Shown: positions 13,763-35,764 of the stretch, piece by piece
Layout of the letters: every line of letters begins with the position of its first letter
How positions within the stretch are numbered: the stretch's first letter is position 1
From: Shinella sp. WSJ-2
Lineage (GTDB): Bacteria; Pseudomonadota; Alphaproteobacteria; Rhizobiales; Rhizobiaceae
NCBI RefSeq assembly: GCF_003432075.1
Contig: NZ_QWBU01000004.1
Location: forward strand, 186,001-250,000
Length of the DNA: 64,000 nucleotides
Direction of reading: 5' to 3'
Program-made: the position numbers and the translations under genes
The notes under the pieces: generated by a model
Seen by the model: the letters and a program-made list of their open reading frames with translations, nothing else
The model's database searches: none
Told to the model about the DNA's origin: nothing

Positions 13763-14701
13763 TTAGACGCGCGCGGCGTGCAGATAAGTCTCGGCGATAT
13801 CGGCGACAACGGACAGCGCCAGCGCGTTGACGTCGCGGGCCTTGTCGAAAATGCCGATCGGCGCCTTGATGCGGGCGAGATCGTCTTCGCCGTGTCCACG
13901 CCCGCGCAGCGCCTCGCAGCGCTTGGCATGGGTGCGCCGGCTACCGAGTGCGCCGATATAGAAGGCGGGCGAAAAAAGCGCTGCGTCGAGCAGCGGCAAT
14001 TCGCGGTCGATATCGTGGTAGAACAGCGCGACGGCCGTATCGGCATCGAACTGATCGGGTGTTGGTGTCTGGCCGCGCTCGATGGTCACGACCTCGTAAC
14101 TGGAGGCCGTCGCGATCCGTGCCACTGCACTCGCCTCCATCGGCGTGCCGGCCAGAAGCAAGCGCGGCTTTGGGCGGTAGGCGCGCACGAATGTATCGCC
14201 CTCCCAGCCGCTGGTGCCCTCGCCCGGCTCGAAAGACAAGGCCTGTGTGCCGGGATGGTAGCGCAGGCGCACGGGGATGCGGTGCCGAAGCGCCCTCAGC
14301 GCGCTGCGCAGCACCGAACCGGCACGTAGCACATGGATGGCAAGCGTAATGCCGCCGCCGCAGGGCAACACGATATCGAAGAAAGGCGAGCCTTCGCCGA
14401 GGCGGAGATTGCGGTCCATGCCCTTGCTCAGCGCGATGACGGCGTCGGCAGCGACGGCCGCTTCCGTGCAGCCGCCGGAGACGAAGCCGCAATAGAGGCC
14501 ATCGTCACGAACCGCCATCTGCGCGCCGATGGCGCGGGCAGCACCGCCACGGATTTCGACCAGCGTGACCAGTGCTGCAGAATAGCCATCGTCAAGCGCA
14601 TCGGCGGCGAAGGTGAGGATGTCGATCGCATCGTCGGAGAGGAAGGCCGCGCGGGGTTCCGGGGCGATCCAGTCCGGGTTCTCGGCGATGCGGGCGGCCA
14701 T
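13763..14701 (-). CDS. xdhC: XdhC/CoxI family molybdenum-cofactor maturation protein
   Basis: A protein of 312 residues with the two XdhC/CoxI parts: an N-terminal XdhC domain (SGGCTEAAVAADAV, with the conserved GGC) and a C-terminal Rossmann-like domain (RLLLAGTPMEASAVARIA, FYIGALGSRRTHAKR). Family members bind molybdenum cofactor and sulfurate or insert it into xanthine-dehydrogenase-type enzymes, and this one is the likely partner of the hydroxylase at 20.3-24.0 kb. The start ATG at 14701 follows the ubiX stop by one base (TGATATG), with GGAGGGG as ribosome-binding site. A longer form would overlap ubiX. It ends the amidohydrolase-ubiD-ubiX block. Confidence 0.85.
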   Translation of the reverse strand: MAARIAENPDWIAPEPRAAFLSDDAIDILTFAADALDDGYSAALVTLVEIRGGAARAIGAQMAVRDDGLYCGFVSGGCTEAAVAADAVIALSKGMDRNLRLGEGSPFFDIVLPCGGGITLAIHVLRAGSVLRSALRALRHRIPVRLRYHPGTQALSFEPGEGTSGWEGDTFVRAYRPKPRLLLAGTPMEASAVARIATASSYEVVTIERGQTPTPDQFDADTAVALFYHDIDRELPLLDAALFSPAFYIGALGSRRTHAKRCEALRGRGHGEDDLARIKAPIGIFDKARDVNALALSVVADIAETYLHAARV

Positions 14702-14702
14702 A

Positions 14703-15284
14703 TCATTCCCCTCCTTGCGTTCCTTCCCAGCGGCGAACAATGCCGGGGTCGAGATCGAACAGATCAAGCACCCGGCCGACCGTATGGTCGACCATCTCTT
14801 CAAGGCTCTTCGGCCTGGCGTAGAAGGCCGGGACGGGCGGATAGATGATGCCGCCCATCTCCGTGACCTGCGCCATGTTGCGGATATGGCCGAGATGCAG
14901 TGGCGTCTCGCGCAGCATCAGGACAAGGCGGCGGCGTTCCTTCAGCACCACGTCGGCGGCGCGCGACAGCAGGTTGTCCGTCGTGCCCGTCGCGATCTCC
15001 GCCATGGTCTTCACCGAGCAGGGCGCGACGATCATGCCGAGCGTCTTGTAGGAGCCGGAGGAACAGACCGCGCCGATATCCTTGTTGGAATGGGTGGTCG
15101 TCGCCAGCGATTCCAGGTCCTGCTTGGTAAAATCCGCCTCGGCCGCGAGCGTGATGCAGGCGGCGCGCGACATGATCAGGTGCGTCTCGATTTCGAGGTC
15201 GCGCAGCACTTCGAGGATGCGCTTGCCGTAGATGACCCCGGACGCCCCCGAAATGCCGATGATCATGCGTCTTGGCCGCGTCAT
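14703..15284 (-). CDS. ubiX: UbiX family flavin prenyltransferase
   Basis: A protein of 193 residues at the usual UbiX length. GISGASGVIYGKRILEVL is the FMN-binding start, and SSGSYKTLGMIVAPCSVKTM plus TDNLLSRAADVVLKERRRLV are the diagnostic UbiX signatures. The enzyme transfers a dimethylallyl group to FMN to make prenylated FMN, the cofactor of UbiD decarboxylases. Placement 6 bases after ubiD shows that it serves that enzyme. The RLVLMLRETPLHLGHIRNM stretch binds the prenyl phosphate. Confidence 0.92.
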   Translation of the reverse strand: MTRPRRMIIGISGASGVIYGKRILEVLRDLEIETHLIMSRAACITLAAEADFTKQDLESLATTTHSNKDIGAVCSSGSYKTLGMIVAPCSVKTMAEIATGTTDNLLSRAADVVLKERRRLVLMLRETPLHLGHIRNMAQVTEMGGIIYPPVPAFYARPKSLEEMVDHTVGRVLDLFDLDPGIVRRWEGTQGGE

Positions 15285-15290
15285 GACCTG

Positions 15291-16664
15291 TTATCCCGCT
15301 GATTTGAGGAGGGCTGCGGCACGCGCGGACGCCTCATCGCTGATGCGGGCGCGCACGCCATGGAAATTAGGGCCGCGCGTGGCGTCGAGGCCCATACGCG
15401 AGGTCGTGCCGATGCCGCTGGCCGAGGGGTCGAGCGCATTGCCCGGCAGGCCCTCGATGATGACGACGTCCTTGTGCGGCTGAAAGTGGGTGGCGAGCGC
15501 CCAGAGGACTTCCGAGTCCTTGGTGATATCGACATCCGCATCCACCACCACGACGTTCTTCAAGTACTGGTCCCAGCCGAGCAAGCCGAGCATCACCTGC
15601 CGAGCCTCGCCTTCGCGGGTTTGGTTCATCGCGATATAGGCGTGGAAATGCGTGCCGGAGGATGGGTAGTGGACGGCGGTGATCGAGGGGAAGCGGGCCT
15701 TCAGCTTCTCCACCACTTCGGCCTCGCGCGGCACGCGGCCGAGGTTCAGGTGCTCGGCCGAATTGCCGCCCGCGACGGAGACGAGCATGGCATCGCGCCG
15801 GCGCATGATGGTCTCGACGGTGAATAGGTTGTTGGTCGAGCGGTCGGAGGAATAACCGGTGAACTCGCCGAACGGCCCCTCCTCCACATGGGCGGCGGGA
15901 TCGATCACGCCTTCCAGCACGATCTCGGCATGGGCGGGAACGCGAATGCCGTATTTCGGCGTGCGCACGACCTGCAGCGGCTCGCCCATCAGGCCGCCGG
16001 CCACGTCGCGCTCGTCCTCGCCGAAGGCAAGGCGGGCGGAAGCGGCGATCATGAACAGCGGATGGCCGCCGATCACCATGGCCACCGGCATCGGCTTGCC
16101 CTTCTCCTTGGCCATGTTCATCAGCCGCCAGAGGTGGCCCCGCGAATGCAGCGACGTCGCCAGCGAATTCTTCGAATGGATCATCGCGCGGTGATAGCTG
16201 AGATTCCCCGCGCCGGTTTCCGGGTGCTCGCCGATGATGATGCCCGATGTGATGTATTTCGCGCGGTCGGTGTCGAAGTGCTTCAGCATCGGCAGCGTGT
16301 TCAGGTCGACGTCGTCGCCGGAGATGATCTCTTCGGTGATCGGGCCGCTTTCCAGCAATTCCGGCGTGAAGGGCCTGTTCGAACGGGCCTGATAGGCCTC
16401 GTGCAGCTTGTCTGCGGTCGAACCGAGCAAGCGGGCAATACGGTCGCGCGAGGCAAAGATGTTGCAGACCACTTCGGCACCGATGCCGCTGACATTCTTG
16501 AGGTGCAGCATCGGGTGCTGGCCCTTGTCCGCAAGCGTCCAGATCAGCGCCGTGGCGTCCTGATCGTCCGAGACCGGCCGGTCGATGGTGATGACGTCCT
16601 CGGGATGTTCGGCGCTGTAATCGGCCAGGAAACGGCGGACGTCTTGCTTGTGGTACTGGCTCAT
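15291..16664 (-). CDS. ubiD: UbiD family prFMN-dependent decarboxylase
   Basis: A protein of 457 residues, typical of UbiD. Residues that fit the active site of fungal Fdc1 by spacing are N154 and R159 (NLSYHR), H177 (SRGH), and E262 and E267 in EGPFGEFTGY. The Arg-Glu-Glu set matches the conserved proton-transfer network. It would reversibly decarboxylate an aromatic, heteroaromatic or alpha,beta-unsaturated acid using prenylated FMN made by the adjacent UbiX. The true ubiquinone-pathway UbiD is not implied; the catabolic neighbours argue for substrate breakdown. The substrate is unknown. Confidence 0.88.
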   Translation of the reverse strand: MSQYHKQDVRRFLADYSAEHPEDVITIDRPVSDDQDATALIWTLADKGQHPMLHLKNVSGIGAEVVCNIFASRDRIARLLGSTADKLHEAYQARSNRPFTPELLESGPITEEIISGDDVDLNTLPMLKHFDTDRAKYITSGIIIGEHPETGAGNLSYHRAMIHSKNSLATSLHSRGHLWRLMNMAKEKGKPMPVAMVIGGHPLFMIAASARLAFGEDERDVAGGLMGEPLQVVRTPKYGIRVPAHAEIVLEGVIDPAAHVEEGPFGEFTGYSSDRSTNNLFTVETIMRRRDAMLVSVAGGNSAEHLNLGRVPREAEVVEKLKARFPSITAVHYPSSGTHFHAYIAMNQTREGEARQVMLGLLGWDQYLKNVVVVDADVDITKDSEVLWALATHFQPHKDVVIIEGLPGNALDPSASGIGTTSRMGLDATRGPNFHGVRARISDEASARAAALLKSAG

Positions 16665-16720
16665 ATCTCGGCCTCGGTGCTCGGGGTTGGCGGCGCATCA
16701 GGCCGCCCGACATGTAAAAA

Positions 16721-16816: not shown

Positions 16817-16856
16817 TCTAGCCCGCCGCCGGAGAGCGGCTGGCATTTCGTTCAGA

Positions 16857-17804
16857 TCAAGCCGGCTGCAGCAGGTGCTTGCCGGTGGCGCGGTCGACGC
16901 CGGCATAGCTGTCCGTCAGGCGCGCCTGGGCGTCCTTCAGGTCGCGCGGTGGCGGCGACGGGTCGATGCCCACGAGCTTGGCGATGTTGTTGCCGAGATA
17001 GCCTTCCAGATCATCCTCGGAGAGGTTGATGCCGTGTGGCGGCTCCTTGCAGAGCACTTCCAGCTCGCGCAGCCACATGCCCGGATCATTCGGCGGGCTG
17101 TCCGTGCCGAAGACGATCTTGTTCTTCGGCAGCTGCTGGGCGAACTCCACGATGCGCGACTGGAAGCACCAGCCGGATTCGCAGTAGACGTTCGGCGTAT
17201 CCATCGCCATCCAGAAGGATTCGAACGAGTAGTTGCCGCCCGTCTGGATGCCGAAGTGACCGATGATGAAGTTGACCATCGGGAACTCGCGGATGATCGG
17301 GTAGAACATCGTCGGGATCGTGTACGGGCCGTCGCCGGTGTGGATGAGGACGACGACGCCGAGTTCGGCGCACTTTTTCATCGCCGGACGCAGCCATTCG
17401 AGTGCGCGATCGGGACGGTAGCCGTGCATGTTGGCATGCAGCTTCAGCATCTTGAAGCCGTATTCCTTGACGTGGAATTCCAGCTCCGCGGCGCCGTTTT
17501 CAGGCCCCCAGCGCGGGTTGTAGTTGAAGTTGCCGATGAAGCGGTCCGGATACTTCTCGCACAGCTCGGCGATATAGGCCATGTAGTCGCGAATGCCCTC
17601 GCGGCCCTTGCGGTTGCCGTCACGGTAGCCCGTGTTGCCCGGCGGCGGCTGGATGAAGCCCATGTCGATACGGCGCGGCTTGCCGTTGATCATGTAGGGG
17701 CCGTCCATCAGCTTGAGCATGCGCTCACCGGTGAAGGGCGTCCCCGTATGGCGCCATGCCTCGTCGACGAGGTTGGTCGGGTGAAGATGGGTATCAATGA
17801 TCAT
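16857..17804 (-). CDS. Amidohydrolase (ACMSD-like family) with intact metal site
   Basis: A protein of 315 residues of the amidohydrolase-2 family, which includes ACMSD-type decarboxylases and lactonase-like hydrolases with a TIM barrel. The metal ligands are in place: H6 and H8 in DTHLHP, H155 in VVLIHTGDGP, H183 in IIGHFG, and D235 in VFGTDSPPND. It would use one divalent metal to decarboxylate or hydrolyse an aromatic or heterocyclic acid derivative. It lies 16 bases after a closely related paralog that lacks the HxH pair. GGAG upstream of the ATG supports the start. Confidence 0.8.
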   Translation of the reverse strand: MIIDTHLHPTNLVDEAWRHTGTPFTGERMLKLMDGPYMINGKPRRIDMGFIQPPPGNTGYRDGNRKGREGIRDYMAYIAELCEKYPDRFIGNFNYNPRWGPENGAAELEFHVKEYGFKMLKLHANMHGYRPDRALEWLRPAMKKCAELGVVVLIHTGDGPYTIPTMFYPIIREFPMVNFIIGHFGIQTGGNYSFESFWMAMDTPNVYCESGWCFQSRIVEFAQQLPKNKIVFGTDSPPNDPGMWLRELEVLCKEPPHGINLSEDDLEGYLGNNIAKLVGIDPSPPPRDLKDAQARLTDSYAGVDRATGKHLLQPA

Positions 17805-17820
17805 TGTTCACTCCGTTCGT

Positions 17821-18744
17821 TTACGCGGCGATCTGGACGCCGTGCTGGCGCAGATACGCCTCGGCTTCCTCGACGGTTGCCGGCGGCTTGGTCGGCTCGA
17901 GGCCGATCATGCGGGCGAGGTTGTTGCCCAGGTAGTCTTCCAGGTCGTCCTCGGAGAGGTTCAGGCCCTGCGGCGGCTCGTGGCAGAGGACTTCCAGAAG
18001 GTTGATCCACATGCCCGGCTCGTTCGGCGGGGTGTCGGAGCCGAAGAGGATCTTGTGCTTGGGCAGGACCTTGGCGAATTCGACGATACGCGACTGGAGG
18101 CACCAGCCGGATTCGACGTAGACGCTCGGCGTGTCCAGCGCCATCTGCATCGGCTCGAACACATAGACGCCGCCCGTCTGGACGCCGAAATGCGCGAGGA
18201 TGAAGTTGATCTCCGGGAATTCGCGGATGATCGGGTAGAATTCGGTCGGGATCGAGTACGGACCGTCACCGGTATGCACCTTCACCATCAGGCCGAGTTC
18301 GGCGCACTTCTTCATGGCCGGGCGCAGCCAGTCGAGCGCGCGGTCCGGGCGGTAGGCGTGCATGTTCGCCTGCAGCTGGACCATCTTGAAATCGAATTCC
18401 TTGGCATAGCGTTCGATTTCGTCGACGCCGTTCTGCACGCCGTAACGCGGATTGTAGACGAAGCAGCCGAGGAACCGGTCGGGATGCTCGGTCACCATCT
18501 TTTCCGTATAGCCCATGTACTGGCGGATGGCGGCTTTGCCTTCCAGGTCCATGATCTCGTGGGTGTAGATGGTGTTGCCCTGCGGGGGCTGGATGAAGGC
18601 CTTGTCCACACGGCGCGGCTTGCCGTTCACATAATACGGGCCGTCCATCATCTTCAAAAGCTTGTCGCCGGTGAAGGGCGGTCCATCGTGGCGCCAAGCC
18701 AGGTCCACCAGGTCGGTGGGGTAGCAGCTTAGGTCGATTATCAT
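17821..18744 (-). CDS. Amidohydrolase-like paralog lacking the HxH metal motif
   Basis: A protein of 307 residues, homologous end to end with the next gene (shared runs such as PTDLVDLAWRH/PTNLVDEAWRH, ESGWC and LSEDDLE). Positions 6 and 8, His in the paralog and in the family, are Ser and Tyr here (IIDLSCYPTD). The later ligands remain: H157 in KVHTGDGP, H185 in AHFG, D237 in FGSDTPP. It may be a non-catalytic partner that stabilises the active paralog, or it may use an altered site. An AGGAG site precedes ATG 18744; a longer form starting near 18885 has no homology to the paralog and is rejected. It leads the amidohydrolase-ubiD-ubiX-xdhC block. Confidence 0.78.
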   Translation of the reverse strand: MIIDLSCYPTDLVDLAWRHDGPPFTGDKLLKMMDGPYYVNGKPRRVDKAFIQPPQGNTIYTHEIMDLEGKAAIRQYMGYTEKMVTEHPDRFLGCFVYNPRYGVQNGVDEIERYAKEFDFKMVQLQANMHAYRPDRALDWLRPAMKKCAELGLMVKVHTGDGPYSIPTEFYPIIREFPEINFILAHFGVQTGGVYVFEPMQMALDTPSVYVESGWCLQSRIVEFAKVLPKHKILFGSDTPPNEPGMWINLLEVLCHEPPQGLNLSEDDLEDYLGNNLARMIGLEPTKPPATVEEAEAYLRQHGVQIAA

Positions 18745-19143: not shown

Positions 19144-20319
19144 CTAGGCCGCCAGGCATGCGCGCAAGTTTCTGTCGATGCCGTCACGGTCGAGGTTGCG
19201 GCCGATGAAGACGAATTTCGATTTCGGCGTATCCTCGCCCCAGGCGTGATCCGGCCGGAAATCAACCAGCTTGTGCACCGCCTGGAGCACGAAGAACCGG
19301 TCGTCGTTCGCCACCGAGACGATGCCCTTGGTGCGGAAGATATCGTCGCCGTGCTCGCCGAGATAATTCTTCAGGAAGCCCGCCAGCTTCTCGCCGTCGA
19401 AGGATTGCGGGTAGACGAAGGAATGGGACTTCACCGTCGCATCGTGGCGGTGCGGGCGCAGCGCCGTTGCCGGGGCATGATCATGTTTGTGGCCGTGATC
19501 ATGGTGATGGTCCGGATTATCGCAGGCCGCATCGTGGCATTCGATGTGATGATCGTGGTCCGGATGGGCGCAGGCCGCGTCATGGCAATCGTGGCTGTGA
19601 TGGCCGTGCGCATCGCGGTCGTCATCCATGTCTATGTCGAGGATTTCCGCGCGCTCGCGCACGTAGGACGGCCGGAAGCCTTTGACGCCGAGGATGTTGG
19701 ACAGGTCCACCTTGCCATAGGTCGAGCGCAAGATCGGCGCGGTCTGGTTGAGCTTGCGCAGCGAGCCCTCCAGCTCACCGAGGCCTTCCTCGGAGGCAAG
19801 GTCGACCTTGTTGACGAGGATGCGGTCGGCCGCGACGATCTGGTTGACCGCCTGGTTGTCGCTGCCGTCGAGCACGGGATCGTAGAGGTGCTGGTCGATA
19901 TGCATGGCATCGACCAGCGTCACGATAGCGTCGAGCTCCACCTCGTCGGCGACGCTGCGGTCGACGAAGAAGGCGGTGGCGACGGGGGTCGGATCGGCGA
20001 GGCCCGAGGTCTCGACGATGATGTGATCGAACTTGTCCTTGTGGCTGAGCAGCTTCTTCATCACGTCGATGAGGTCGTTGCGCACATCGACGAAGCAGCA
20101 GATGCAGCCGTTCTGCATCTGGAAGATCTCTTCGTCCGAGGCGAGCACGAGGTCGCTGTCGACGTCCACTTCACCGAACTCGTTTTCGATCACCGCGATA
20201 CGGTGGCCGTGACGCTCGGTGAGGATGTAGTTGAGCAGCGTCGTCTTTCCCGATCCAAGGAAGCCGGTGAGGATCGTGATCGGGAGTTTCTTGCTGGCTG
20301 GTTCGATGTGCATGTTCAT
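19144..20319 (-). CDS. COG0523 (CobW/ZNG1-type) metallochaperone GTPase
   Basis: A protein of 391 residues. The G domain shows GFLGSGKTT (19-27), the metal-binding GCICC motif (C72, C74, C75), ETSGLADP and NKVD (170-173). A histidine/cysteine-rich insert spans about residues 238-292 and contains the block CHDAAC twice (245-250 and 261-266). The CobW C-terminal domain follows (KSHSFVYPQSFDGEKLAGFL). Such proteins use GTP to deliver Zn, Fe or Co to client enzymes. Overlap of its ATG with the Mo-subunit stop (4 bases) ties it to the hydroxylase operon, so the client may be that enzyme or a neighbouring metal-dependent amidohydrolase. Confidence 0.85.
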   Translation of the reverse strand: MNMHIEPASKKLPITILTGFLGSGKTTLLNYILTERHGHRIAVIENEFGEVDVDSDLVLASDEEIFQMQNGCICCFVDVRNDLIDVMKKLLSHKDKFDHIIVETSGLADPTPVATAFFVDRSVADEVELDAIVTLVDAMHIDQHLYDPVLDGSDNQAVNQIVAADRILVNKVDLASEEGLGELEGSLRKLNQTAPILRSTYGKVDLSNILGVKGFRPSYVRERAEILDIDMDDDRDAHGHHSHDCHDAACAHPDHDHHIECHDAACDNPDHHHDHGHKHDHAPATALRPHRHDATVKSHSFVYPQSFDGEKLAGFLKNYLGEHGDDIFRTKGIVSVANDDRFFVLQAVHKLVDFRPDHAWGEDTPKSKFVFIGRNLDRDGIDRNLRACLAA

Positions 20320-22622
20320 GCGCCCTTCTCCCTCAAGGCTTTCAGAATGTCTTCCGGGGTAATCGGATAGTGATGGAAGCGGACGCCGATGGCGTCGTAG
20401 ATGGCATTGGCGATCGACGGACCGATGGCGATGATCGGGTCTTCGCCCACACCCTTGGCGCCCCAGGGGCCGCCCGGATCGGGTGCTGCTTCCAGGATGA
20501 TCGTCTCGATGTCCGGCATGTCCATAGAGAGCGGCATCTTATAGTCGACGAGGCCGGCATTCAGCGACCGGCCGGTCTTCTTGTCGATAACGTAGTCCTC
20601 GGTCAGCGTGTGGCCGATGCCCTGCTGGATGCCGCCCTCGATCTGGCCCTGCGCGGCGATCGGGTGGATGACCCGGCCGATATCGTGCACCGGCACGACG
20701 CGCTTGACCTCGACGATGCCCGTTTCCGTATCGACATGCACCTCGGTGAAGTGGGCGGCGAAGGAGTAGGACTTCGTCGGCTCGTAGGTGCCGTTCGCCA
20801 CGATGTTGGCGGCGGGAATACCACGGGACGGACCCATGGCTTCCGCGACCGACATGAAGCGGCCCGGTTCGGCCGTGACGAAGATCTTGCCTTCGGAAAG
20901 GTCGAGTTCGTCGGCCTTCACCTGCAGCTTCATCGCGGCGCGTTCGAGAACGGACGCACGCACCTTGGTCGCGGCCATCTTGGCGGCGGTGCCGACGAGA
21001 TAGGTGGTGTGGCTGGCGAAGGCGCCGATATCCCATGGCACGACGTCCGTATCGCCGTGGATGACGCCGACATCCTCGAAGCGCACGCCGAGTTCTTCGG
21101 CAACGATCTGCGCCAGCGCGGTGTGCGCGCCGGTGCCGAGACCGGCCGCCCCGGTAAGCAGCGTCACCGTACCATCCTCGTTGACCTTCACGGTGGCGTT
21201 GCCCTGCTCCTTGATGCCCGGATAGGCGGAGGAGCCGTGCATTTCGCAGCCGATGCCCCAGCCCTTGCGGATATGCGGGCGCTTCGGATCCGGCGTGCGG
21301 TCACGATTGCGCAGGCTCTTCCAGTCGAGCACGTCGATGCCGTGCTGGAGGCAGATTTCGAGGCCATGGCCGACGATCGGGTGGCCGGACGGCGCGATAT
21401 CGCCGGCGCGGACCACATTCTTCAGCTTCAGGTCCGCCGGGTCCATGCCGAGCCGTTCGGCCGCTTCGTCCATCTGGATATCGAGCGCGTAGTAGCTCTG
21501 CACCACGCCGTAGCCGCGGAACGCGCCGTTGATCGGCGTGTTGGTATAGACGCAGCGGCCTTCCAGCCGCACGTTCTCGCAGCGGTAGAGCGAGGTCGCG
21601 GCCGTCGTGCCGACGATGGTGACGCCCGGACCGTGCGAGCCGTAGGCGCCGGAATCGTAGACCAGCTTCATGTCGCGGGCGACCAGCGTGCCGTCGTTCT
21701 TGAAGCCCTGTTTCAGCCAGACCTTGCAGGGATGACGGGCACGGCCGGCGACGAAGGTCTCGTGGCGGGTGAACTCCATCTTCACCGGCCGGCGCGTTTC
21801 CTTCGCCAGCAAAGCGCAAAGGAATTCGTGCTGGAAGCAATCCTGCTTGGCGCCGAAGCCGCCGCCCATGTGGTCGACGAGCACGCGCACCTTGGTGAGC
21901 GGCAGGCCGAGCACTTCCGCCAGGATGCCGCGCACCATGAAGGAGGTCTGGGTGGACGTCCAGAAGGTCAGCTTGTTGGAGCCGTCCCAATCGGCGATGC
22001 AGACATTCGGCTCCATATAGGCCGGATGCGGGCGCCCGCCGGAGAAGGTACCTTCGAGAATGAAATCCGCCTGAGCGAAACCGGCCTCGACATCACCGCG
22101 GTTGACGCGCACCGGATCGAGCACGAGATTGCCGCCGGGGCCGACATCGTGAATGAGCGGCGCGCCCGGAAGGGCTGCGTCTTCCGGCTCGAAAACCGCC
22201 GGCAGGGCCTCGTATTCGACCTCGATCAGGTCCAGCGCCTCGTCAGCGATCTCCTCGCTGATGGCGGCAACGGCAGCGACGCCCTCGCCCCAGAAGCGCA
22301 CCTTGTCGTCGAGAATATATTGGTCCTTGGTGCAGGAGGCCGAGCGCGGATGCGGCGAACCGTAATGCAGCACGCGCGGCACGTTTTCGTGGGTCAGCAC
22401 GGCCTTGACGCCGGGATAGGCGAGCGCCTTGCTGACATCGATGCTCTTGATGCGGGCGTGCGCGATCGCAGCGCGCTTGATCTTGCCGTGCAGCATGCCG
22501 GCCAGCTTGACGTCGCCGGTATATTCGGCCTCGCCCGTCACCTTTTCGAGCACGTCGTCGCGCTTGACGCTCTTGCCGACGATCTTGAATTCGCGCTCTT
22601 CGATAGGGGTGTTGATGTTCAT
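20316..22622 (-). CDS. Molybdenum hydroxylase large subunit (xanthine dehydrogenase/CoxL family)
   Basis: A protein of 768 residues. It binds the molybdopterin cofactor and substrate of a xanthine-oxidase-family enzyme. Markers are VLVDHMGGGFGAKQ, INGAFRGYGVVQ (FRG arginine), TGAAGLGTGAHTALAQI, and the C-terminal GGPWGAKGVGE with E727 as the expected catalytic base. It lacks the AYxCSFR loop of CO dehydrogenase, so a hydroxylase of a heterocycle, aldehyde or related acid is expected. Start ATG 22622 overlaps the 2Fe-2S gene stop (ATGA); a longer frame upstream is out of register with the family. Confidence 0.85.
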   Translation of the reverse strand: MNINTPIEEREFKIVGKSVKRDDVLEKVTGEAEYTGDVKLAGMLHGKIKRAAIAHARIKSIDVSKALAYPGVKAVLTHENVPRVLHYGSPHPRSASCTKDQYILDDKVRFWGEGVAAVAAISEEIADEALDLIEVEYEALPAVFEPEDAALPGAPLIHDVGPGGNLVLDPVRVNRGDVEAGFAQADFILEGTFSGGRPHPAYMEPNVCIADWDGSNKLTFWTSTQTSFMVRGILAEVLGLPLTKVRVLVDHMGGGFGAKQDCFQHEFLCALLAKETRRPVKMEFTRHETFVAGRARHPCKVWLKQGFKNDGTLVARDMKLVYDSGAYGSHGPGVTIVGTTAATSLYRCENVRLEGRCVYTNTPINGAFRGYGVVQSYYALDIQMDEAAERLGMDPADLKLKNVVRAGDIAPSGHPIVGHGLEICLQHGIDVLDWKSLRNRDRTPDPKRPHIRKGWGIGCEMHGSSAYPGIKEQGNATVKVNEDGTVTLLTGAAGLGTGAHTALAQIVAEELGVRFEDVGVIHGDTDVVPWDIGAFASHTTYLVGTAAKMAATKVRASVLERAAMKLQVKADELDLSEGKIFVTAEPGRFMSVAEAMGPSRGIPAANIVANGTYEPTKSYSFAAHFTEVHVDTETGIVEVKRVVPVHDIGRVIHPIAAQGQIEGGIQQGIGHTLTEDYVIDKKTGRSLNAGLVDYKMPLSMDMPDIETIILEAAPDPGGPWGAKGVGEDPIIAIGPSIANAIYDAIGVRFHHYPITPEDILKALREKGA

Positions 22623-25452: not shown

Positions 25453-25583
25453 TCGCTTTCCTCCCAGCGAATAGTGTTCCGGCGCGGTGGGGGGCATCTT
25501 GGCCTCATGTTTTGGCACCGCACGCCGTACAAGGCCGATCATGCTGTTGACCAAATCAGCAAACAATCGGCATAATTATATTT

Positions 25584-25602
25584 ATTCATCTGGTAATTGA
25601 AT
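25584..25602. promoter_or_regulatory. Candidate LysR operator between permease and regulator
   Basis: ATTCA (25584-25588) and TGAAT (25598-25602) form a dyad with a 9-base centre, in an AT-rich stretch 12 bases before the LysR start. This fits a LysR-type T-N11-A box. Its place next to the regulator's own start suggests autoregulation together with control of the divergent permease operon. Confidence 0.4.
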
Positions 25603-27608: not shown

Positions 27609-27636
27609 CAAACAATTGAAATAATGAATTTGTTTG
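27609..27636. promoter_or_regulatory. Candidate operator upstream of deaminase-like gene
   Basis: CAAACAA (27609-27615) and TTGTTTG (27630-27636) are perfect 7-bp inverted repeats with a 14-base centre, in an AT-rich patch 51 bases before the amidohydrolase ATG at 27687. This suits binding by one of the two LysR proteins at the promoter of the import operon. CAAACAAT also occurs in the LysR/permease intergenic region near 25559. Confidence 0.45.
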
Positions 27637-29032: not shown

Positions 29033-30031
29033 ATGAACAAGACTGCATTTTCACGTCGTTCGCTGCTCGCATCCACCATCGCATTCACCGTTGCCGCCTC
29101 ACCGCTGTGGCAGGCGCCCGTCCATGCCGAAGACTTCAAGATGGGCCTTCTGGTGCCCGGCAGCATCGGGGAAGAAGGCTGGAACCGGATCGCCTTCGAC
29201 GCGCTGAAACGGGTCGAGAAGGAGCTGGGCGCCAAGATCAGTTATGTCGAGCTGCCGGAGAACCCGGCCGCCTTCGAAAAAGCGTTCCGCGACTATGCCG
29301 GCCAGGGCTATCAGGTCGTGCTGGGCCACGGCTTCCAGTTCCAGGATGCGGCGCTGACGGCGGCGGAGGACTTTCCGGATACCGTGTTCCTGATCTCGTC
29401 GAGCCGTATCCATGAGGGCAAGGTCATCGGCCTCAACACCGATGCCAGCCAACCCTTCTATCTCATGGGCGTGATCGCCGCGAAGCTTGGCAAGGGCGCC
29501 GGCCTCATCGGCGGCATGGAAATCCCGCCCATCACGCAGGCTTTCGAAGGCTTTGTGAACGGCGTAAAAAGCGTGAACCCGGATTTCCCGGTCTCGACCA
29601 TCTATCTCGGCAGTTTCACCGATGCGAGCGCGGCGAAGGAAGCTGCCTTAAGCGTGATCTCGCAGGGTGCCGATTTCGTCATTCCCAATGCCAATTCGGC
29701 TGGCATGGGCGTCATCCAGGCCGCGCGGGAAGCATCGGGCGGCAAGGCCAGTACCTTCAGCGTCTACAGCGACTATACCCACGCCGCCCCTCAGAATGTG
29801 CTCGGCACGTTCCTGGCCGATTACGGCCAGGGCATCGTGCGCATCGTCTCGGGCATCAAGGACGGCAAGGTGCCGGACAGCAATGTCGACTTCGGCCTGA
29901 AGGACACCGACGTCATCAAGTTCACCTACAACGACGCGGCCAACCGACCGGTGCCCGCGGAGCTGCGCACATTCGTCGACGACGTGAGCGCGAAGATCGT
30001 CGCAGGCGACATCCAGACCCGCGCGAAGTGA
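29033..30031 (+). CDS. BMP family periplasmic binding protein 1
   Basis: A protein of 332 residues of the BMP/PnrA-like family, whose known members bind purine nucleosides or related ligands for ABC import. The signal peptide has a twin-arginine pattern (SRRSLLASTIAFTVA) and ends near HAEDF. There is no lipobox, so it is a soluble periplasmic protein. The mature start KMGLLVPGSIGEEGWN is the BMP opening. The gene after it is a close paralog and the same permeases follow, so both probably feed one transporter with different ligand ranges. GGGGGGAAT gives a strong ribosome-binding site. Confidence 0.85.
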   Translation: MNKTAFSRRSLLASTIAFTVAASPLWQAPVHAEDFKMGLLVPGSIGEEGWNRIAFDALKRVEKELGAKISYVELPENPAAFEKAFRDYAGQGYQVVLGHGFQFQDAALTAAEDFPDTVFLISSSRIHEGKVIGLNTDASQPFYLMGVIAAKLGKGAGLIGGMEIPPITQAFEGFVNGVKSVNPDFPVSTIYLGSFTDASAAKEAALSVISQGADFVIPNANSAGMGVIQAAREASGGKASTFSVYSDYTHAAPQNVLGTFLADYGQGIVRIVSGIKDGKVPDSNVDFGLKDTDVIKFTYNDAANRPVPAELRTFVDDVSAKIVAGDIQTRAK

Positions 30032-30082
30032 CGCCAAGATCCGGCGCGGGTCTCGGAAAATCAACCAATGGGAGGAAATGCA

Positions 30083-31063
30083 ATGAAATTTTCAAGAAGA
30101 CTGTTCCTGGAAGGCGTGGCCGCTCTGTCGATCGCCGTCGCCATCCCCGCCATCGCACAGGCAGATGACTTCAAGATGGGCCTTCTCGTGCCCGGCAGCG
30201 TCTCGGAAGAGGGCTGGAACCGCATCGGCTTCAACGCGCTGAAGGGCGTGGAAAGCCAGCTCGGCGCCAAGATCAGCTATGTCGAGCTGCAGCAGAACCC
30301 GGCCTCCTTCGAAAAGGCGTTCCGCGACTATGCGAGCCAGGGTTACAAGGTCATTCTCGGCCATGGCTTCGAATTCCAGGACGCGGCGCTCGAAGTCGCG
30401 CTCGACTATCCCGACACCTATTTCCTGATCTCGTCGAGCAGCATCCATGAAGGCAATGTCATCGGCCTCAACACCGATACCAGCCAGCCCTTCTACCTGA
30501 TGGGCGTGATCGCCGCGAAAATGGGCAAGAAGGCCGGCCTCGTCGGCGGCATGGAAATCCCGCCGATCCAGCAGGCCTTTACCGGCTTCAAGAACGGCGC
30601 GAAAAGCGTCAATCCGGATTTCCCGATCAGCGAGGCCTATATCGGCAACTTCACCGATACGACGGCGGCCAAGGAAGCGGCGCTGAGCATGATCTCGCAG
30701 GGCGCCGATTTCGTCGTGCCGAACGCTTCGGGCGCGACAGTGGGCGGCTATCAGGCGATTGCCGAGTCCGGCAAGGACGTGCGCTCCTTCTCGATCTTCA
30801 GCGACTTCACACCGGTCGCGCCCAACAACATCCTCGGCCTTTATGTCGCCGACTATGCCCAGGGCGTGGTGGAAGTCGTCAAATCGATCAAGGACGGCAC
30901 CCCGCCGACGGAAAACGTCGTCTTCGGCCTGAAGGATCCGAAGGTCATCTCCTTCACCTTCCGCGATGACGGCCCGGTCTCCGTGCCGGCCGAGATCCGC
31001 GCGGAAGTGAAGGCGATCAGCGACAAGATCGCAGCCGGCGAAATCAAGACGGACGGCCAATAA
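30083..31063 (+). CDS. BMP family periplasmic binding protein 2
   Basis: A protein of 326 residues, a tandem paralog of its upstream neighbour with extended shared tracts (DDFKMGLLVPGSVSEEGWNR, GLNTDTSQPFYLMGVIAAK, GGMEIPPIQQAF). The signal peptide SRRLFLEGVAALSIAV is a near-perfect twin-arginine motif, ending AQADDF. ATG 30083 has GGGAGG 7 bases upstream; an ATG at 30068 lies inside that site and is rejected. The product probably binds a related or metabolised form of the same ligand. Export by Tat would mean folding in the cytoplasm, which is uncommon for this family. Confidence 0.85.
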   Translation: MKFSRRLFLEGVAALSIAVAIPAIAQADDFKMGLLVPGSVSEEGWNRIGFNALKGVESQLGAKISYVELQQNPASFEKAFRDYASQGYKVILGHGFEFQDAALEVALDYPDTYFLISSSSIHEGNVIGLNTDTSQPFYLMGVIAAKMGKKAGLVGGMEIPPIQQAFTGFKNGAKSVNPDFPISEAYIGNFTDTTAAKEAALSMISQGADFVVPNASGATVGGYQAIAESGKDVRSFSIFSDFTPVAPNNILGLYVADYAQGVVEVVKSIKDGTPPTENVVFGLKDPKVISFTFRDDGPVSVPAEIRAEVKAISDKIAAGEIKTDGQ

Positions 31064-31139: not shown

Positions 31140-32234
31140 ATGGCACAGGTAAACCAGGGAGTGCGCGAGACCATGTATCCTCAAGCAGCCCAGACCTTCT
31201 ACCGGACGCTCTCGCAGATCGCGATCAGCGCCGTGACTCCGATCGCGGCGGTCCTCGTCGCCCTCGCCTTCGGCGCCCTCCTGTTATGGCTGAACGGCTT
31301 CAACGGCAGCGACGTCGTCACCGTCATGATCTTTGGCTCGTTCCAGGACATGCGCTCGGTGGGTGAGATCCTGCTGAAGGCGACGCCGCTCATCCTCATC
31401 GGCGCAGGCCTCTGCGTCGCCTTCCGCTGTTCGATCTGGAATATCGGCGCCGAAGGCCAGCTCTATGCCGGCGCGATTGCCGCGACGCTGGTCGGAACGA
31501 ACTTCGACGGGCTTTCCATCTGGGTGCATGCGCCCCTCGTCCTGCTGGCCGGAGCGCTCGCGGGTGCCGCCTGGGCCGGAATTGCCGGCTATCTCAAGGT
31601 GCGCTTCCAGGCAAGCGAGATCGTCACCACGATCATGCTCAACTATATCGCACTCATCCTGACGAGCTATCTCGTCACCGGCCCAATGCGCGATGCGAGT
31701 GCGGCCTATCCGCAATCCGCCCGCCTGATCCGGGAAGCCTGGACGCCGCGCATCGTCTCCGACATGCGCCTGCATATCGGCATCCTCGTCGCCATCGTGC
31801 TGGCGGTCGCGCTCTATATTTTCCTGCAAAGGAGCAGCCGCGGCTTTGCCCTGCGCGTCGTCGGCCTCAATCCGCATGCCGCCCGTTATGCCGGCATGCA
31901 GGTCGCCCGCAACGTCATGATCGCCATGTGCATTTCCGGCGCTATGGCCGGCCTTGCCGGCGCGTTCGAAGTGGCTGGCGTCACGCACCGGCTCTATCAG
32001 AACATCTCGCCGGGCTATGGTTTCGAAGGTATCGCGGTCGCGCTGCTGGCCGCCAACAATCCCCTGGCGGCCATCGTCTCGGGCGGGCTCTTTGCGACGC
32101 TGCGCTCCGGCTCGGAAGTGCTCCAGATCACCTCGCAGGTCCCGCAGGTCCTCGTGCTGGTCATCCAAGGCATGGTCATCCTCTCGGTCGTCGCCTTCGC
32201 CAAATTGCGCGACATCCTCAGGATCGTGGCCTGA
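31140..32234 (+). CDS. ABC transporter permease 1 (BMP-associated)
   Basis: A protein of 364 residues with about nine helices, of the branched-chain/ribose-type permease family (BPD_transp_2) that goes with BMP binding proteins. SIWNIGAEGQLYAGAIAATLV and RASEIVTTIMLNYI-like segments are typical of the purine-nucleoside YufP-type group. It forms the membrane channel together with the next permease. The gene follows the second binding protein by 76 bases. Confidence 0.88.
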   Translation: MAQVNQGVRETMYPQAAQTFYRTLSQIAISAVTPIAAVLVALAFGALLLWLNGFNGSDVVTVMIFGSFQDMRSVGEILLKATPLILIGAGLCVAFRCSIWNIGAEGQLYAGAIAATLVGTNFDGLSIWVHAPLVLLAGALAGAAWAGIAGYLKVRFQASEIVTTIMLNYIALILTSYLVTGPMRDASAAYPQSARLIREAWTPRIVSDMRLHIGILVAIVLAVALYIFLQRSSRGFALRVVGLNPHAARYAGMQVARNVMIAMCISGAMAGLAGAFEVAGVTHRLYQNISPGYGFEGIAVALLAANNPLAAIVSGGLFATLRSGSEVLQITSQVPQVLVLVIQGMVILSVVAFAKLRDILRIVA

Positions 32235-32312
32235 AAGAATGGAAACTCCCGCCGGGCGCCTGAGCCCTGCGGGAAAACAAAACCTTAGGCGACAATCCCG
32301 AAGGGGTTCCCC

Positions 32313-33245
32313 ATGGACGACATGATGTTTCTCACCTTCCTCGCGACGCTCGTCGGCGCCGCCTGGAGACTTGCGACGCCCCTGATCTTCGCCTCGATCG
32401 GCGAGGTGTTTTCCGAGCGGGCCGGCGTGCTCAATATCGGGCTGGAAGGCACCATGCTGGTCGGCGCCTTCTGCGGCTTCGCGGCGGCCTTTGCGAGCGG
32501 CAGCATCCTTCTCGGCCTGCTGGCTGGTGTTGCCGGCGGCATGCTGTTCGGCCTGATCTTCGCCTTCTTCACGATCACCATCAAGGCGGACCAGATCGTG
32601 GTGGGCGCAGCCCTCAACCTGCTCGGCATGGGTCTCACGGCCTTCCTTTTCCGCACCTATTACGTCTCGACCGGCAAGGGCATCGAGATCGCCCAACCCG
32701 TACATATCCCCTTCCTGAGCGACATCCCCTTCCTCGGCGAAGCCTTCTTCCGGCAAAACCTCATCGTCTATTCGACGGTTCTCGTCGCGATCCTCGCCAG
32801 CCTCGTTCTGTTCCGTACCTCCTTCGGGCTGACGCTGCGGGCCGTCGGCGAACATCCGAAAGCCGTCGACGTCGCCGGCCGCAATGTCGCGGGTTATCGC
32901 TACGCTGCCGTTTTGGTCGGAACAGGCCTTGCCGGCCTCGGCGGCGCCTTCCTGACACTCGGTCACTCCAACCAGTTCGTCGAAGGCATCACGTCGGGGC
33001 GCGGTTTCATCGCGCTCGCCGTCGTGGTCTTCGCCCGCTGGTCGCCGACCGGGGCGTTCTTTGTCTCGCTGCTCTTCGGCCTGTTCTACGCACTCCAGCT
33101 GATGCTTCAGGCGCAGGCGTCCATCGTCGTGCCCTACCAGGTGCTGCAGGCGCTTCCCTACATCATGACGATCGTCACGCTCGTCGTGGTTCGCGGCAAG
33201 GGAGCCGCTCCCAGCAAGCTCGGCCAGCCCTACGAGATGAGGTAA
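32313..33245 (+). CDS. ABC transporter permease 2 (BMP-associated)
   Basis: A protein of 310 residues with about eight to nine helices, of the YufQ-like half of the same permease family. GVLNIGLEGTMLVGAFCGFAA is the conserved coupling segment, and FGLTLRAVGEHPKAVDVAGRNV is the usual cytoplasmic loop. It pairs with the preceding permease as a heterodimer. The stop is 5 bases before the ATPase start, so translation is coupled. Confidence 0.88.
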   Translation: MDDMMFLTFLATLVGAAWRLATPLIFASIGEVFSERAGVLNIGLEGTMLVGAFCGFAAAFASGSILLGLLAGVAGGMLFGLIFAFFTITIKADQIVVGAALNLLGMGLTAFLFRTYYVSTGKGIEIAQPVHIPFLSDIPFLGEAFFRQNLIVYSTVLVAILASLVLFRTSFGLTLRAVGEHPKAVDVAGRNVAGYRYAAVLVGTGLAGLGGAFLTLGHSNQFVEGITSGRGFIALAVVVFARWSPTGAFFVSLLFGLFYALQLMLQAQASIVVPYQVLQALPYIMTIVTLVVVRGKGAAPSKLGQPYEMR

Positions 33246-33250
33246 CGGAC

Positions 33251-34783
33251 ATGTCCCAGAAACCCTTCCTGCGCATCGAAAACATCCGCAAGCGCTTCGG
33301 CCCCATCATCGCCAGCGACGGCGTGTCGCTCGAAATCGAAGAGGGCGAGATCCACTCGCTGCTCGGCGAGAACGGGGCCGGCAAGAGCGTACTGATGAGC
33401 ATGATCTGCGGCATGGTGCGGCCTGACGAAGGCGAGATCGTCTTCAAAGGGGAGACCGTGCGCTTCAACAGCCCGCGCGAGGCGATCCGCCAGCGCATCG
33501 GCATGGTGCACCAGCACTTCATGCTCGTGCCCAACCTGACGGTCGCGGAAAACTACATTCTCGGCCAGGGCTCGGCGCTGCGCGTCATCAACGACATGGA
33601 CAAGGTCCACGCCAAGATCCGCGAACTCTCCGACCGCTATGCGCTGGACGTGCGCCCCGACGCCATCATTGAGGATCTCTCGGTCGGCGAGCAGCAGCGC
33701 GTCGAAATCCTCAAGGTCCTGTTCCACGGCATCGACCTTCTGATCCTCGACGAGCCGACCGCCGTGCTGACCCCGCAGGAGACCGACCGGCTGCTCTCGC
33801 TGATGGGCGATCTCGTTAAGGACGGCAAGACCGTCGTCTTCATCTCGCACAAGCTCGACGAGGTGATGCGCGTCAGCAATCGCATCAGCGTCATGCGCGA
33901 CGGGCGCGTGGTGCACACCGTCCATGTCGGCGAGACGAATGCCCGCGAGCTCGCGCGCATGATGGTCGGCCGCGACGTGCGCATGGAGCTGCCGCGCAGC
34001 CCCGAGCCGCCCGGCCGCACCGTGCTCTCGGTGGAAAACCTGACCTGCCGCGCCGAGACCGGCCTGCCCGCCGTGCGCGGTGTGAGCCTCAATGTGCGCG
34101 CCGGCGAGATCGTCGGCATTGCCGGCGTCTCCGGCAATGGCCAGACGGAATTGTCGCTCGCATTGTCCGGCCTGCTGCCGGTCGATAGCGGCCGCGTGAT
34201 GCTGAACGGCAAGGACATTACCGGCCTCGACCCCGCCACGATCAATGCCAGCAGCTTCTCCCATATCCCGGAGGACCGCCACAAACACGGCATCGTCGTC
34301 TCGATGTCGCTCAGCGAAAACACCATCCTCCAGCGCTACGACCAGAAGCCCTTCGCCAGCGGCGGCATGCTGAACCGCGGCGTGATCGGCGAACACACCC
34401 GCGACCTGATCAAGCGCTTTCGCGTGAAGAGCCGCGACGAGAACCAGGCGATCGGCTCTCTTTCGGGCGGCAATCAGCAGAAGCTGGTCGTGGCGCGCGA
34501 ACTGGCCCGCAACCCGGATTTCATCCTCGTCAACCAGCTCGCCCGCGGCATCGATATCGGCGCCATGGAATTCGTCATGGAGGAGATGCTGAAGCAGCGC
34601 GACAACGGCCGCGCCATCCTGCTCATCTCCACCGAACTCGAGGAACTCTTTGCGATCTGCGATCGCATCCTCGTGATGTTCCACGGCGAGATCCTCGGCG
34701 AATTGCCACCGGACCGCACCCGCCTCGACGAACTCGGCTTGCTGATGGCGGGTCAGACGGAGCAACCGGCGCTTGCGAGCTAG
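33251..34783 (+). CDS. ABC transporter ATPase, duplicated (BMP-associated)
   Basis: A protein of 510 residues with two ATP-binding cassettes in tandem. The first is complete: Walker A GENGAGKS (near residue 38), signature LSVGEQQR and Walker B LLILDEPTAVL. The second has a degenerate P-loop (GVSGNGQTE) and Walker B (FILVNQLARG), with signature LSGGNQQK. That asymmetry is normal for this sugar/nucleoside import family. It energises the two permeases. The gene is 57 bases before the second LysR gene, which probably belongs to the same transcript. Confidence 0.9.
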   Translation: MSQKPFLRIENIRKRFGPIIASDGVSLEIEEGEIHSLLGENGAGKSVLMSMICGMVRPDEGEIVFKGETVRFNSPREAIRQRIGMVHQHFMLVPNLTVAENYILGQGSALRVINDMDKVHAKIRELSDRYALDVRPDAIIEDLSVGEQQRVEILKVLFHGIDLLILDEPTAVLTPQETDRLLSLMGDLVKDGKTVVFISHKLDEVMRVSNRISVMRDGRVVHTVHVGETNARELARMMVGRDVRMELPRSPEPPGRTVLSVENLTCRAETGLPAVRGVSLNVRAGEIVGIAGVSGNGQTELSLALSGLLPVDSGRVMLNGKDITGLDPATINASSFSHIPEDRHKHGIVVSMSLSENTILQRYDQKPFASGGMLNRGVIGEHTRDLIKRFRVKSRDENQAIGSLSGGNQQKLVVARELARNPDFILVNQLARGIDIGAMEFVMEEMLKQRDNGRAILLISTELEELFAICDRILVMFHGEILGELPPDRTRLDELGLLMAGQTEQPALAS

Positions 34784-34840
34784 ACAGGACGGGAGCGGCA
34801 AGGTTTGATGGGAACAGTATAACAGGAGGGCCGCGCGTCC

Positions 34841-35764
34841 ATGAATATCACGCTGCGGCAACTCAGGGCTTTCATCGCGGTGGCCGAACTCGGCCAGTTC
34901 AATCTCGCCGCCCGAAACCTGCATCTCACCCAGTCGGCGGTCAGCATCCTCATCCGCGATCTGGAATCCGAAATCGGCGTGCGCCTGTTCGACCGGCATA
35001 CGCGCATGGTCTCGCTCACACTCGTCGGCCAGGAATTCCTGCCACAGGCGCGAAAGATCCTGAAGGATCTGGAGCTGGCCGTCGGCGACGTGCGTGACAA
35101 TGCCTCGCTGAAGCGCGGCCAGGTGACGATCGCGGCGGCGATCGTGCTCGCTGCCACGATCGTGCCGCCGATCATCGCGCGCTTCCTGCGCATGTATCCG
35201 GAAATCTCCGTGAATATCAGGGACATGCCGGAAGAGCAGATTACGCCTGCGCTGAAGCGCAACGAGGTGGACATTGCCGTCGGCACCCTGTCGGAGGACG
35301 ACCCGGAAATCACCGCGACGCCGCTCCTGCGCGACAAGTTGATGTTCATGTGCAGGGAGGACCATCGTTTCGCGCGGCGCAAATCCGTGCGCTGGGCGGA
35401 ACTGAAGGACGAGACCCTCATCACGCTTGCCGCCGCCAATCCGCTGCGCAGCATCGTCGAGCACAATCTCATCCGCGTGGTGCCGAACTACAAGCCGAAA
35501 TACGAGGTGCGCTTCTCGACGACCGCCATCAGCATGATCGCCGCCGGCATGGGCGTCGCCGTGCTACCGGAGAATTCGAGCCAGCTTGCTTCCGCCGTGC
35601 GCGTGACCGCGGTCGATCTTGTCGATCCGCATGTCATGCGCGACGTCTCGCTTCTGCAGCGCCGCCATCACAGCCTGTCGCCGGCCGCAGAGCATCTGAA
35701 AGCCGTGTTCATCGCGAGCGCCGCCGAACGCACGGGCTTTTTGGACCGCGACGGCAAGGAATAG
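34841..35764 (+). CDS. LysR family regulator at end of import operon
   Basis: A protein of 307 residues. The N-terminal winged helix (LRQLRAFIAVAELGQFNLAARNLHLTQSAVSILIRDLE) is very like that of the first LysR at 25.6 kb, including the RLFDRHTR turn in both. The effector domain is complete. The GGAGGG site upstream is good. It probably regulates the aldolase/amidohydrolase/import genes. The pair of related regulators at each end of the set suggests that the two blocks respond to different intermediates of one pathway. Confidence 0.88.
   Translation: MNITLRQLRAFIAVAELGQFNLAARNLHLTQSAVSILIRDLESEIGVRLFDRHTRMVSLTLVGQEFLPQARKILKDLELAVGDVRDNASLKRGQVTIAAAIVLAATIVPPIIARFLRMYPEISVNIRDMPEEQITPALKRNEVDIAVGTLSEDDPEITATPLLRDKLMFMCREDHRFARRKSVRWAELKDETLITLAAANPLRSIVEHNLIRVVPNYKPKYEVRFSTTAISMIAAGMGVAVLPENSSQLASAVRVTAVDLVDPHVMRDVSLLQRRHHSLSPAAEHLKAVFIASAAERTGFLDRDGKE

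Follow-up and report, generated by a model that had tools for sequence, protein, structure and literature searches.

Which compound is broken down by a gene island that joins a three-subunit molybdenum (Mo) hydroxylase to a UbiD-family decarboxylase, a pair of Amidohydro_2 proteins, a cytosine-deaminase-like amidohydrolase and two nucleobase-type importers? The question is raised by a 22 kb stretch of 19 genes (13763–35764; 10 on the minus strand and 9 on the plus strand) from Shinella sp. WSJ-2, situated in a 64,000-nucleotide stretch of DNA (186001–250000 of its contig) that was analysed as a whole and is called the window here. The island is one catabolic system, its grouping being more than chance, and its substrate class, judged from sequence comparison, is somewhat more probably than otherwise a pteridine, i.e., a 2-amino-4-oxo bicycle. 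We hypothesize that the island converts oxidised pterins to xanthine, and assign the full set of steps a probability of about 0.38.

Pterins, whose ring system underlies folate and the pigments of insects, are made by most organisms. In the proposed pathway, oxidised pterins would be taken up by the NCS2 permease, the BMP-type ABC importer or both, the 2-amino group would be removed by the cytosine-deaminase-like enzyme, and C7 and C6 would be oxidised by the xanthine dehydrogenase (XDH)-type Mo hydroxylase to give 2,4,6,7-tetrahydroxypteridine. The Amidohydro_2 pair would then hydrolyse one amide of the pyrazine ring and reclose it as an imidazole, yielding xanthine-8-carboxylate (EC 5.5.1.3), which UbiD, with prenylated flavin mononucleotide (prFMN) made by UbiX, would decarboxylate to xanthine for completion by the housekeeping XDH and urate enzymes. 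The carboxylate for UbiD may therefore arise within the pathway instead of being taken up, and the end product may be a purine, for which neither a ring-cleavage dioxygenase nor a CoA ligase would be needed. A route of this kind was reportedly described by McNutt in the 1960s, when Alcaligenes faecalis is said to have converted isoxanthopterin through tetrahydroxypteridine and xanthine-8-carboxylate to xanthine. Each step of that breakdown (deamination, hydroxylation, ring contraction and decarboxylation) has a candidate gene in the island. EC 5.5.1.3, tetrahydroxypteridine cycloisomerase, an orphan activity, would correspond to the ring contraction; to our knowledge no gene is assigned to it or to xanthine-8-carboxylate decarboxylase. 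The sequences show the gene content and its linkage, the common promoter word, the conserved core, the exchanged deaminases and hydroxylases, the altered metal site of Ami2a and the co-occurrence with XDH; the substrate class, the order of steps and the enzyme for each step are what we infer. If correct, this reading would supply genes for an enzyme activity dating from the 1960s, extend prFMN decarboxylases to a new class of substrate and add a conserved pairing of an active with a metal-site-altered amidohydrolase.

Gene content and unity of the island

Domain families were called with Pfam and NCBIfam, and gene starts were refined afterwards; supporting families and scores are given in brackets.

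13763–14701, minus strand: XdhC-type Mo-cofactor insertion/maturation protein (XdhC_C, XdhC_CoxI; start refined)
14703–15284, minus strand: UbiX flavin prenyltransferase, which makes prFMN (TIGR00421 and NF004685 above cut-off)
15291–16664, minus strand: UbiD-family prFMN decarboxylase, proposed xanthine-8-carboxylate decarboxylase (UbiD, UbiD_N, UbiD_C)
16857–17804, minus strand: Ami2b, Amidohydro_2 protein with HxH...H...H...D, proposed catalytic subunit for pteridine ring contraction
17821–18744, minus strand: Ami2a, Amidohydro_2 paralogue with S-C-Y replacing HxH, proposed non-catalytic or trans-acting partner
19144–20319, minus strand: CobW-type GTPase, proposed metal chaperone for metallohydrolases (cobW, CobW_C)
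20316–22622, minus strand: Mo hydroxylase large (molybdopterin) subunit (MoCoBD_1, MoCoBD_2, Ald_Xan_dh_C; start refined)
22619–23101, minus strand: Mo hydroxylase 2Fe-2S subunit (Fer2, Fer2_2; start refined)
23098–23961, minus strand: Mo hydroxylase FAD subunit (FAD_binding_5, CO_deh_flav_C)
24052–25497, minus strand: NCS2 purine-type permease, alternative start 25452 (TIGR03173, 520 bits against a cut-off of 414)
25561–25585, plus strand: promoter word site 1, one mismatch, located between the start of NCS2 and that of LysR1
25614–26510, plus strand: LysR regulator 1 (Pfam)
26666–27466, plus strand: class II aldolase, PRK06486 (Pfam; NF005068, 459 bits against 269)
27610–27634, plus strand: promoter word site 2, ahead of the deaminase/BMP operon, no mismatch
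27687–28982, plus strand: cytosine-deaminase-like amidohydrolase, proposed 2-amino-4-oxopteridine deaminase (Amidohydro_3, Amidohydro_1)
29033–30031, plus strand: BMP/PnrA-type substrate-binding protein 1 (Pfam)
30068–31063, plus strand: BMP/PnrA-type substrate-binding protein 2 (Pfam)
31140–32234, plus strand: ABC permease 1 (BPD_transp_2)
32313–33245, plus strand: ABC permease 2 (BPD_transp_2)
33251–34783, plus strand: ABC ATPase with two domains (ABC_tran)
34841–35764, plus strand: LysR regulator 2 (Pfam)

The 2Fe-2S subunit gene overlaps each of its neighbours by four bases. The two BMP proteins are 64.9% identical and the two Amidohydro_2 proteins 63.8%. All gene families named in a sequence-only reading of the same DNA were recovered with domain matches above Pfam cut-offs, and its two related LysR regulators proved to be 39.9% identical; the CobW GTPase, encoded inside the operon, was absent from that description. 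A Pfam search of the 19 island proteins gave no match to CoA ligase or ring-cleavage dioxygenase families, in agreement with the same reading. Because the Hmf furoate pathway comprises a CoA ligase and a CoA-ester hydroxylase, both it and the CoA type in general were rejected, as that reading had also argued.

Seven same-genus genomes, chosen for carrying UbiD, all keep the order Amidohydro_2–CobW–Mo subunits–NCS2–LysR–aldolase–deaminase–BMP importer–LysR, one of them with a single BMP gene and another with an extra BMP match. The UbiD orthologue (at least 95% identity) was found in 8 of the 21 genus genomes sampled, the window's included, and is therefore accessory. To cover the wider family, Ami2b was used as the query; of 264 encoders from named genomes, the best 80 (82–100% identity) were compared with flanks of up to 10 kb; some of these loci end early at contig ends. 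UbiD was present in 79 of these 80 loci (the exception, L048, ends there), CobW in 73, UbiX in 72 and NCS2 in 63. Ami2a adjoins Ami2b in 79, the exception being L092, which begins at a contig start and whose Ami2b cross-match had raised the Ami2a tally to 80. As gene order is kept in all seven relatives and UbiD recurs at loci chosen by Ami2b alone, the grouping exceeds chance, and the earlier suggestion that deamination, Mo hydroxylation and prFMN decarboxylation form one catabolic system is upheld.

Among these best 80 loci, the Ami2a–Ami2b–UbiD core occurs in Shinella, Ensifer, Aminobacter, Mesorhizobium, Paracoccus, Brucella, Acidiphilium, Rhodoplanes, Caballeronia, Paraburkholderia, Ralstonia, Cupriavidus, Massilia and Pseudomonas. 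Judged by Ami2b, a contig of Shinella fusca comes closest among the named ones (100%). The core, scattered among soil bacteria, is nevertheless rare: under strict E-values, the class sample of 192 genomes has it once, in the window's own genome, while 5 of 151 genomes sampled in the family have it, again counting that genome, as do 4 of 399 Burkholderiales (centre genome G077 included).

The two operons also share a promoter word, AAACAATNNNNATAATNANNTTNTT, located upstream of both the NCS2 operon/LysR1 pair and the deaminase operon. With at most one mismatch, these are its only two sites in the whole genome (5.14 Mb); the reversed control has none, and none is expected in shuffles of the window; the word was written after both sites had been viewed, so the two-site count is post hoc and supports co-regulation rather than testing it independently. 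Of 165 loci, 13 carry two exact copies of its 16-base core and 5 carry one, several of these loci being the same genomes counted twice. A simple dyad search across four intergenic regions gave no shared palindrome.

Deaminase exchange and the substrate class

The type of hydroxylase and of deaminase varies across the 80 loci, as tallied by score thresholds. The window-type hydroxylase is encoded in 36 loci and a distinct type, whose large subunit has ~763 aa, in 30; both together were found in none and neither in 14. For the deaminases, the window type occurs in 14 loci and a PRK12393-type enzyme in 35, again never together, with neither in 31 (partial matches in L030 and L034 fall below the tally threshold). 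In L085, L092 and L099 the window-type hydroxylase is combined with the PRK12393-type deaminase. Such a swap, in which a distant enzyme occupies the position of another, would be expected if what is needed is the reaction and not a given protein.

The replacing deaminase provides the clue to the substrate. For the L061 copy, the best solved relative is 2PAJ (451 bits), followed by 3HPA (297) and 7ww2 (286). We take 2PAJ to be Sgx9339a, an isoxanthopterin / pterin-6-carboxylate deaminase for which those are reportedly the only two substrates found; 3HPA, listed merely as an amidohydrolase, is presumably an 8-oxoguanine deaminase, the activity under which 7ww2 is listed. The PRK12393-type enzymes of the 35 loci are 47–58% identical to 2PAJ and are 2PAJ-type by sequence, and in an alignment of 31 of them the Thr-Thr of 2PAJ is kept in 30, whereas 3HPA has Cys-Ser there. 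Since the deaminase used in other lineages is 2PAJ-type, a pteridine is favoured over a pyridine or pyrimidine carboxylate. The carboxylated N-heterocycle of the sequence-only reading thus stands in part: a nucleobase-like N-heterocycle is likely, and within that class a pteridine is now the likelier form. The discovery of the isoxanthopterin / pterin-6-carboxylate deaminase (Hall, 2010) is cited, in the excerpt of PMC5270733 considered here, without a PDB code.

Locus L085 illustrates the exchange. Within 16.5 kb and in one direction, it carries UbiX, the FAD, Fe-S and Mo large subunits, CobW, Ami2a, Ami2b and UbiD, together with NCS2, an ABC ATPase and permeases, a BMP protein and a 2PAJ-type deaminase. 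Its Mo large subunit is 68% identical to that of the window and its deaminase 54% to 2PAJ; relative to the window, the deaminase is exchanged and there is a single BMP gene where the window has two, and genes for XdhC, the aldolase and LysR were not seen in the locus. A BMP protein gene directly precedes the 2PAJ-type deaminase in L082, L085, L094 and L099 (family checked for L082), an adjacency mirrored in the window, where the BMP genes directly follow its own deaminase. The L092 deaminase (58% to 2PAJ) is preceded by an ABC permease and ATPase, relatives of which (61–71%) also precede 2PAJ orthologues of 83–90% identity in L139–L141.

At the genome level, a 2PAJ-like gene was found in 17 of 399 Burkholderiales, all 4 core genomes among them; with the centre genome G077 left out, it is present in 3 of 3 core genomes versus 16 of 398 (~5e-5). 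In G418 and G565, the core and the 2PAJ-like gene lie on different contigs, and, contrary to expectation, 2PAJ orthologues were not found beside the core in G077, G653 and G532. Separate loci with an ABC importer (L139–L142) carry 2PAJ orthologues of 68–90% identity, and deamination of isoxanthopterin may thus take place away from the core as well.

In the window's own deaminase, the HxH, HxDE, H and D motifs lie at 75, 227, 257 and 323; its nearest solved chains are AtzC and cytosine deaminase. Compared by description, the pterin deaminases Arad3529 and Variovorax PDA are likewise near cytosine-deaminase-like amidohydrolases and come from soil proteobacteria; the excerpt of PMC9513972 that covers them reports no cluster with UbiD or a Mo hydroxylase. 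According to the same excerpt, just two bacterial pterin deaminases of this type have been sequenced, and what later becomes of the deaminated products of folate is left open there. An M20 gene borders the island in four Pseudomonas loci (the L071 copy belongs to the allantoate-amidohydrolase subfamily), and three of the four also have an NCS1-like gene (the L071 copy is below the family cut-off), which indicates a nucleobase-catabolism setting.

Hydroxylase, decarboxylase and the Amidohydro_2 pair

With MoCoBD_1/2, FAD_binding_5 and 2Fe-2S subunits, the island hydroxylase belongs to the XDH superfamily. Three-subunit architecture and domains are shared with XdhABC-type XDHs and 4-hydroxybenzoyl-CoA reductase, but the island enzyme falls below the equivalog cut-offs of both, and a true XDH is encoded elsewhere in the genome (G000 C12); a standard XDH operon was rejected on these grounds. 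Comparison of the large subunit with solved chains gave no substrate clue. In insects, XDH hydroxylates pterin at C7, according to an excerpt of PMC11121863.

UbiD_N, UbiD (rift) and UbiD_C all score above their gathering thresholds, and TIGR00148 matches with 307 bits against a cut-off of 245. The Arg of YHR (157–159) and EGPFGE (262–267) align with 6h6x, so the catalytic Arg and Glu pair is present, E-R-E being the catalytic motif of the family. The nearest solved chains, 6h6x and 6h6v (216 and 213 bits), are presumably HmfF of the furan pathway, acting on a five-membered heteroaromatic acid. The island enzyme shares H296 and R304 with HmfF and differs in its setting, which lacks a CoA ligase. 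As a separate observation, three Rhodoplanes loci (L052, L055, L077) keep Ami2a/Ami2b and a Mo hydroxylase, with a UbiD only 39–40% identical and no UbiX seen in the locus; an allantoate-amidohydrolase-like gene lies nearby in L077.

The metal sites of the paralogues were compared in 68 Ami2a and 64 Ami2b sequences of suitable length, window copies included. In Ami2b, the ACMSD-like site H6, H8, H155, H183 and D235 is conserved at 95% or more, whereas in Ami2a Ser and Tyr replace the HxH histidines in 68 of 68 sequences. When Ami2a-like rows are mixed in, as in the alignment on which the Ami2b model was built, only H155, H183 and D235 are invariant. Recoding was considered for Ami2a matches flagged for TGA/TAG (L107, L108, L116 and L117) and set aside, the stop being an ordinary terminal one in the first three. 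The island enzyme differs from the ACMSD / gamma-resorcylate decarboxylase / LigJ group in having an adjacent paralogue with an altered metal site; no such pair is known to us in that group, though no search aimed at one was made. The most specific version of our proposal, in which Ami2a/Ami2b would be tetrahydroxypteridine cycloisomerase as an obligate heteromer, the altered paralogue supporting the metal-dependent amidohydrolase, and would act with a prFMN xanthine-8-carboxylate decarboxylase in a pteridine-to-purine pathway across alpha-, beta- and gamma-proteobacteria, is tentative and less probable than not. Ami2b relatives at 73–75% identity carry the names Streptomyces and Nocardia (P0017, P0020), so the Ami2b family is not confined to proteobacteria.

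Weighing the pathway against its alternatives

The pterin-to-purine reading draws on one characterised relative, whose identity is in part presumed, on the replacement of genes and on the logic of the pathway. Its predicted outlet into purine breakdown can be compared with genome content. A true XDH is encoded in 36 of 36 core genomes, including 15 of 15 Burkholderiales (assigned by record title or Burkholderiales sampling), against a Burkholderiales background of 26/150 (three of these being core genomes), for which genome size may be a confounder; in the window's own family the background is 135/151, which makes the co-occurrence uninformative there. The urate marker PF09349 behaves similarly, with 32 of 32 core genomes versus 49 of 192 in the class, and a family background of 138/151 that makes it equally uninformative in the window's family.

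These limits belong with further observations that weigh against the conversion of pterins to xanthine. No 2PAJ chain is found among the 19 PDB matches of the window's deaminase, which is thus not 2PAJ-type and takes its proposed specificity from its position, and the closest 2PAJ orthologues (83–90%) sit outside the core. The zero overlap of types would have a chance of ~1e-11 (hydroxylases) and ~1e-4 (deaminases) if the loci were independent, which they are not, since the split largely tracks alpha versus beta/gamma lineages. The large hydroxylase subunit stays below the NCBIfam XDH equivalog cut-offs (657/780, 644/916, 481/784 and 339/849.5 bits), and its nearest solved chain is 1rm6 (395 bits), a 4-hydroxybenzoyl-CoA reductase. 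R331 of 6h6x/6h6v is His in the island UbiD, and the class II aldolase is without a clear role in the pathway; side-chain removal would be a speculative one. Most of the folds nearest to Ami2b belong to decarboxylases, including isoorotate decarboxylase, so Ami2b might itself be a second enzyme of that kind. EC 5.5.1.3 offers no comparison sequence, and all activities in the island are predictions.

The fold relationship of Ami2b also favours a rather unlikely alternative, in which the substrates would be folate-derived pteridine-6-carboxylates: UbiD and/or the Amidohydro_2 pair would strip the C6 carboxylate from (7-hydroxy)lumazine-6-carboxylate, and ring opening would bypass xanthine. The pteridine evidence applies to it equally, and an excerpt of PMC9513972 gives lumazine-6-carboxylic acid as a candidate intermediate of folate breakdown. 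It leaves no island gene to open the bicycle after decarboxylation, however, and the Burkholderiales XDH result (15/15 versus 26/150) would go unexplained. Another guanine-like bicycle, such as a queuine-type 7-deazaguanine base or a purine that has been damaged, which would be deaminated, hydroxylated at C8 and decarboxylated, seems unlikely. The NCS2 protein is a xanthine-type permease, 2PAJ-type and 8-oxoguanine deaminases are related, and UbiD enzymes act on 7-deazapurine and other five-membered heteroaromatic carboxylates; yet the cluster deaminases carry the Thr-Thr of 2PAJ, not the Cys-Ser of 3HPA, in 30 of 31 sequences, and no queuosine-type family appeared in the small sample of 27 distinct neighbouring proteins scanned.

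The monocyclic carboxylated pyrimidine or pyridine of the sequence-only reading, for example the thiamine pyrimidine, is improbable: it would suit the resemblance of the window's deaminase to cytosine deaminase and AtzC and the isoorotate decarboxylase fold of Ami2b, but the interchangeable deaminase elsewhere lies in the isoxanthopterin / 8-oxoguanine group. Quinolinate, picolinate, pyrazinoate and uracil-5-carboxylate were early substrate guesses and were set aside. Least probable would be two unrelated neighbours, a Mo/UbiD pathway next to a separate deaminase/BMP importer operon. The operons are divergent, each has its own LysR gene, and some of the 80 loci show just one of the halves within 10 kb; against this stand the common promoter word with only two sites in the genome, the presence of both halves in 7/7 relatives and their occurrence together, in other orders, in L047 and L041. 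The blocks had been predicted to recur together in related genomes if they form one system, and, with the proviso of those incomplete loci, the neighbourhood comparison did not contradict this.

For the pterin-to-xanthine pathway itself, the claim that no named pathway has this combination of genes agrees with the open-licence papers searched, among which no pathway matching the island was found. UbiD and lumazine occur in one such paper only, PMC3833962, on trypanosomatid vitamin synthesis, and the terms tetrahydroxypteridine and xanthine-8-carboxylate only in PMC5941619, in the excerpt of a urine metabolomics table. Within this literature, the system looks undescribed.

Several minor features accompany the related loci. 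An arylmalonate-decarboxylase-type gene (PF17645) occurs in 15 of the 80, mostly in Burkholderiales, and directly follows the deaminase in L053. In L046 and L090, a gene grouped into one cluster across the two loci lies beside XdhC; the L046 copy encodes a MobA-like nucleotidyltransferase, which fits Mo-cofactor tailoring. The locus L038, from a record titled Enemella evansiae (presumably an actinobacterium), is very like that of Mameliella (L040) and is perhaps contamination or a misassigned contig. In the window, the left flank (7449–13239) resembles an exopolysaccharide region, with a Wzz chain-length protein, a GH5 family protein and a WecG/TagA glycosyltransferase. On the other side, a glutamine-synthetase-like protein that is short (346 aa) and scores modestly for the catalytic domain is encoded at 40247–41287, and just downstream of LysR2 and an EamA transporter lies a methyl-accepting chemotaxis protein (36899–38854), which could be a sensor of the island substrate.

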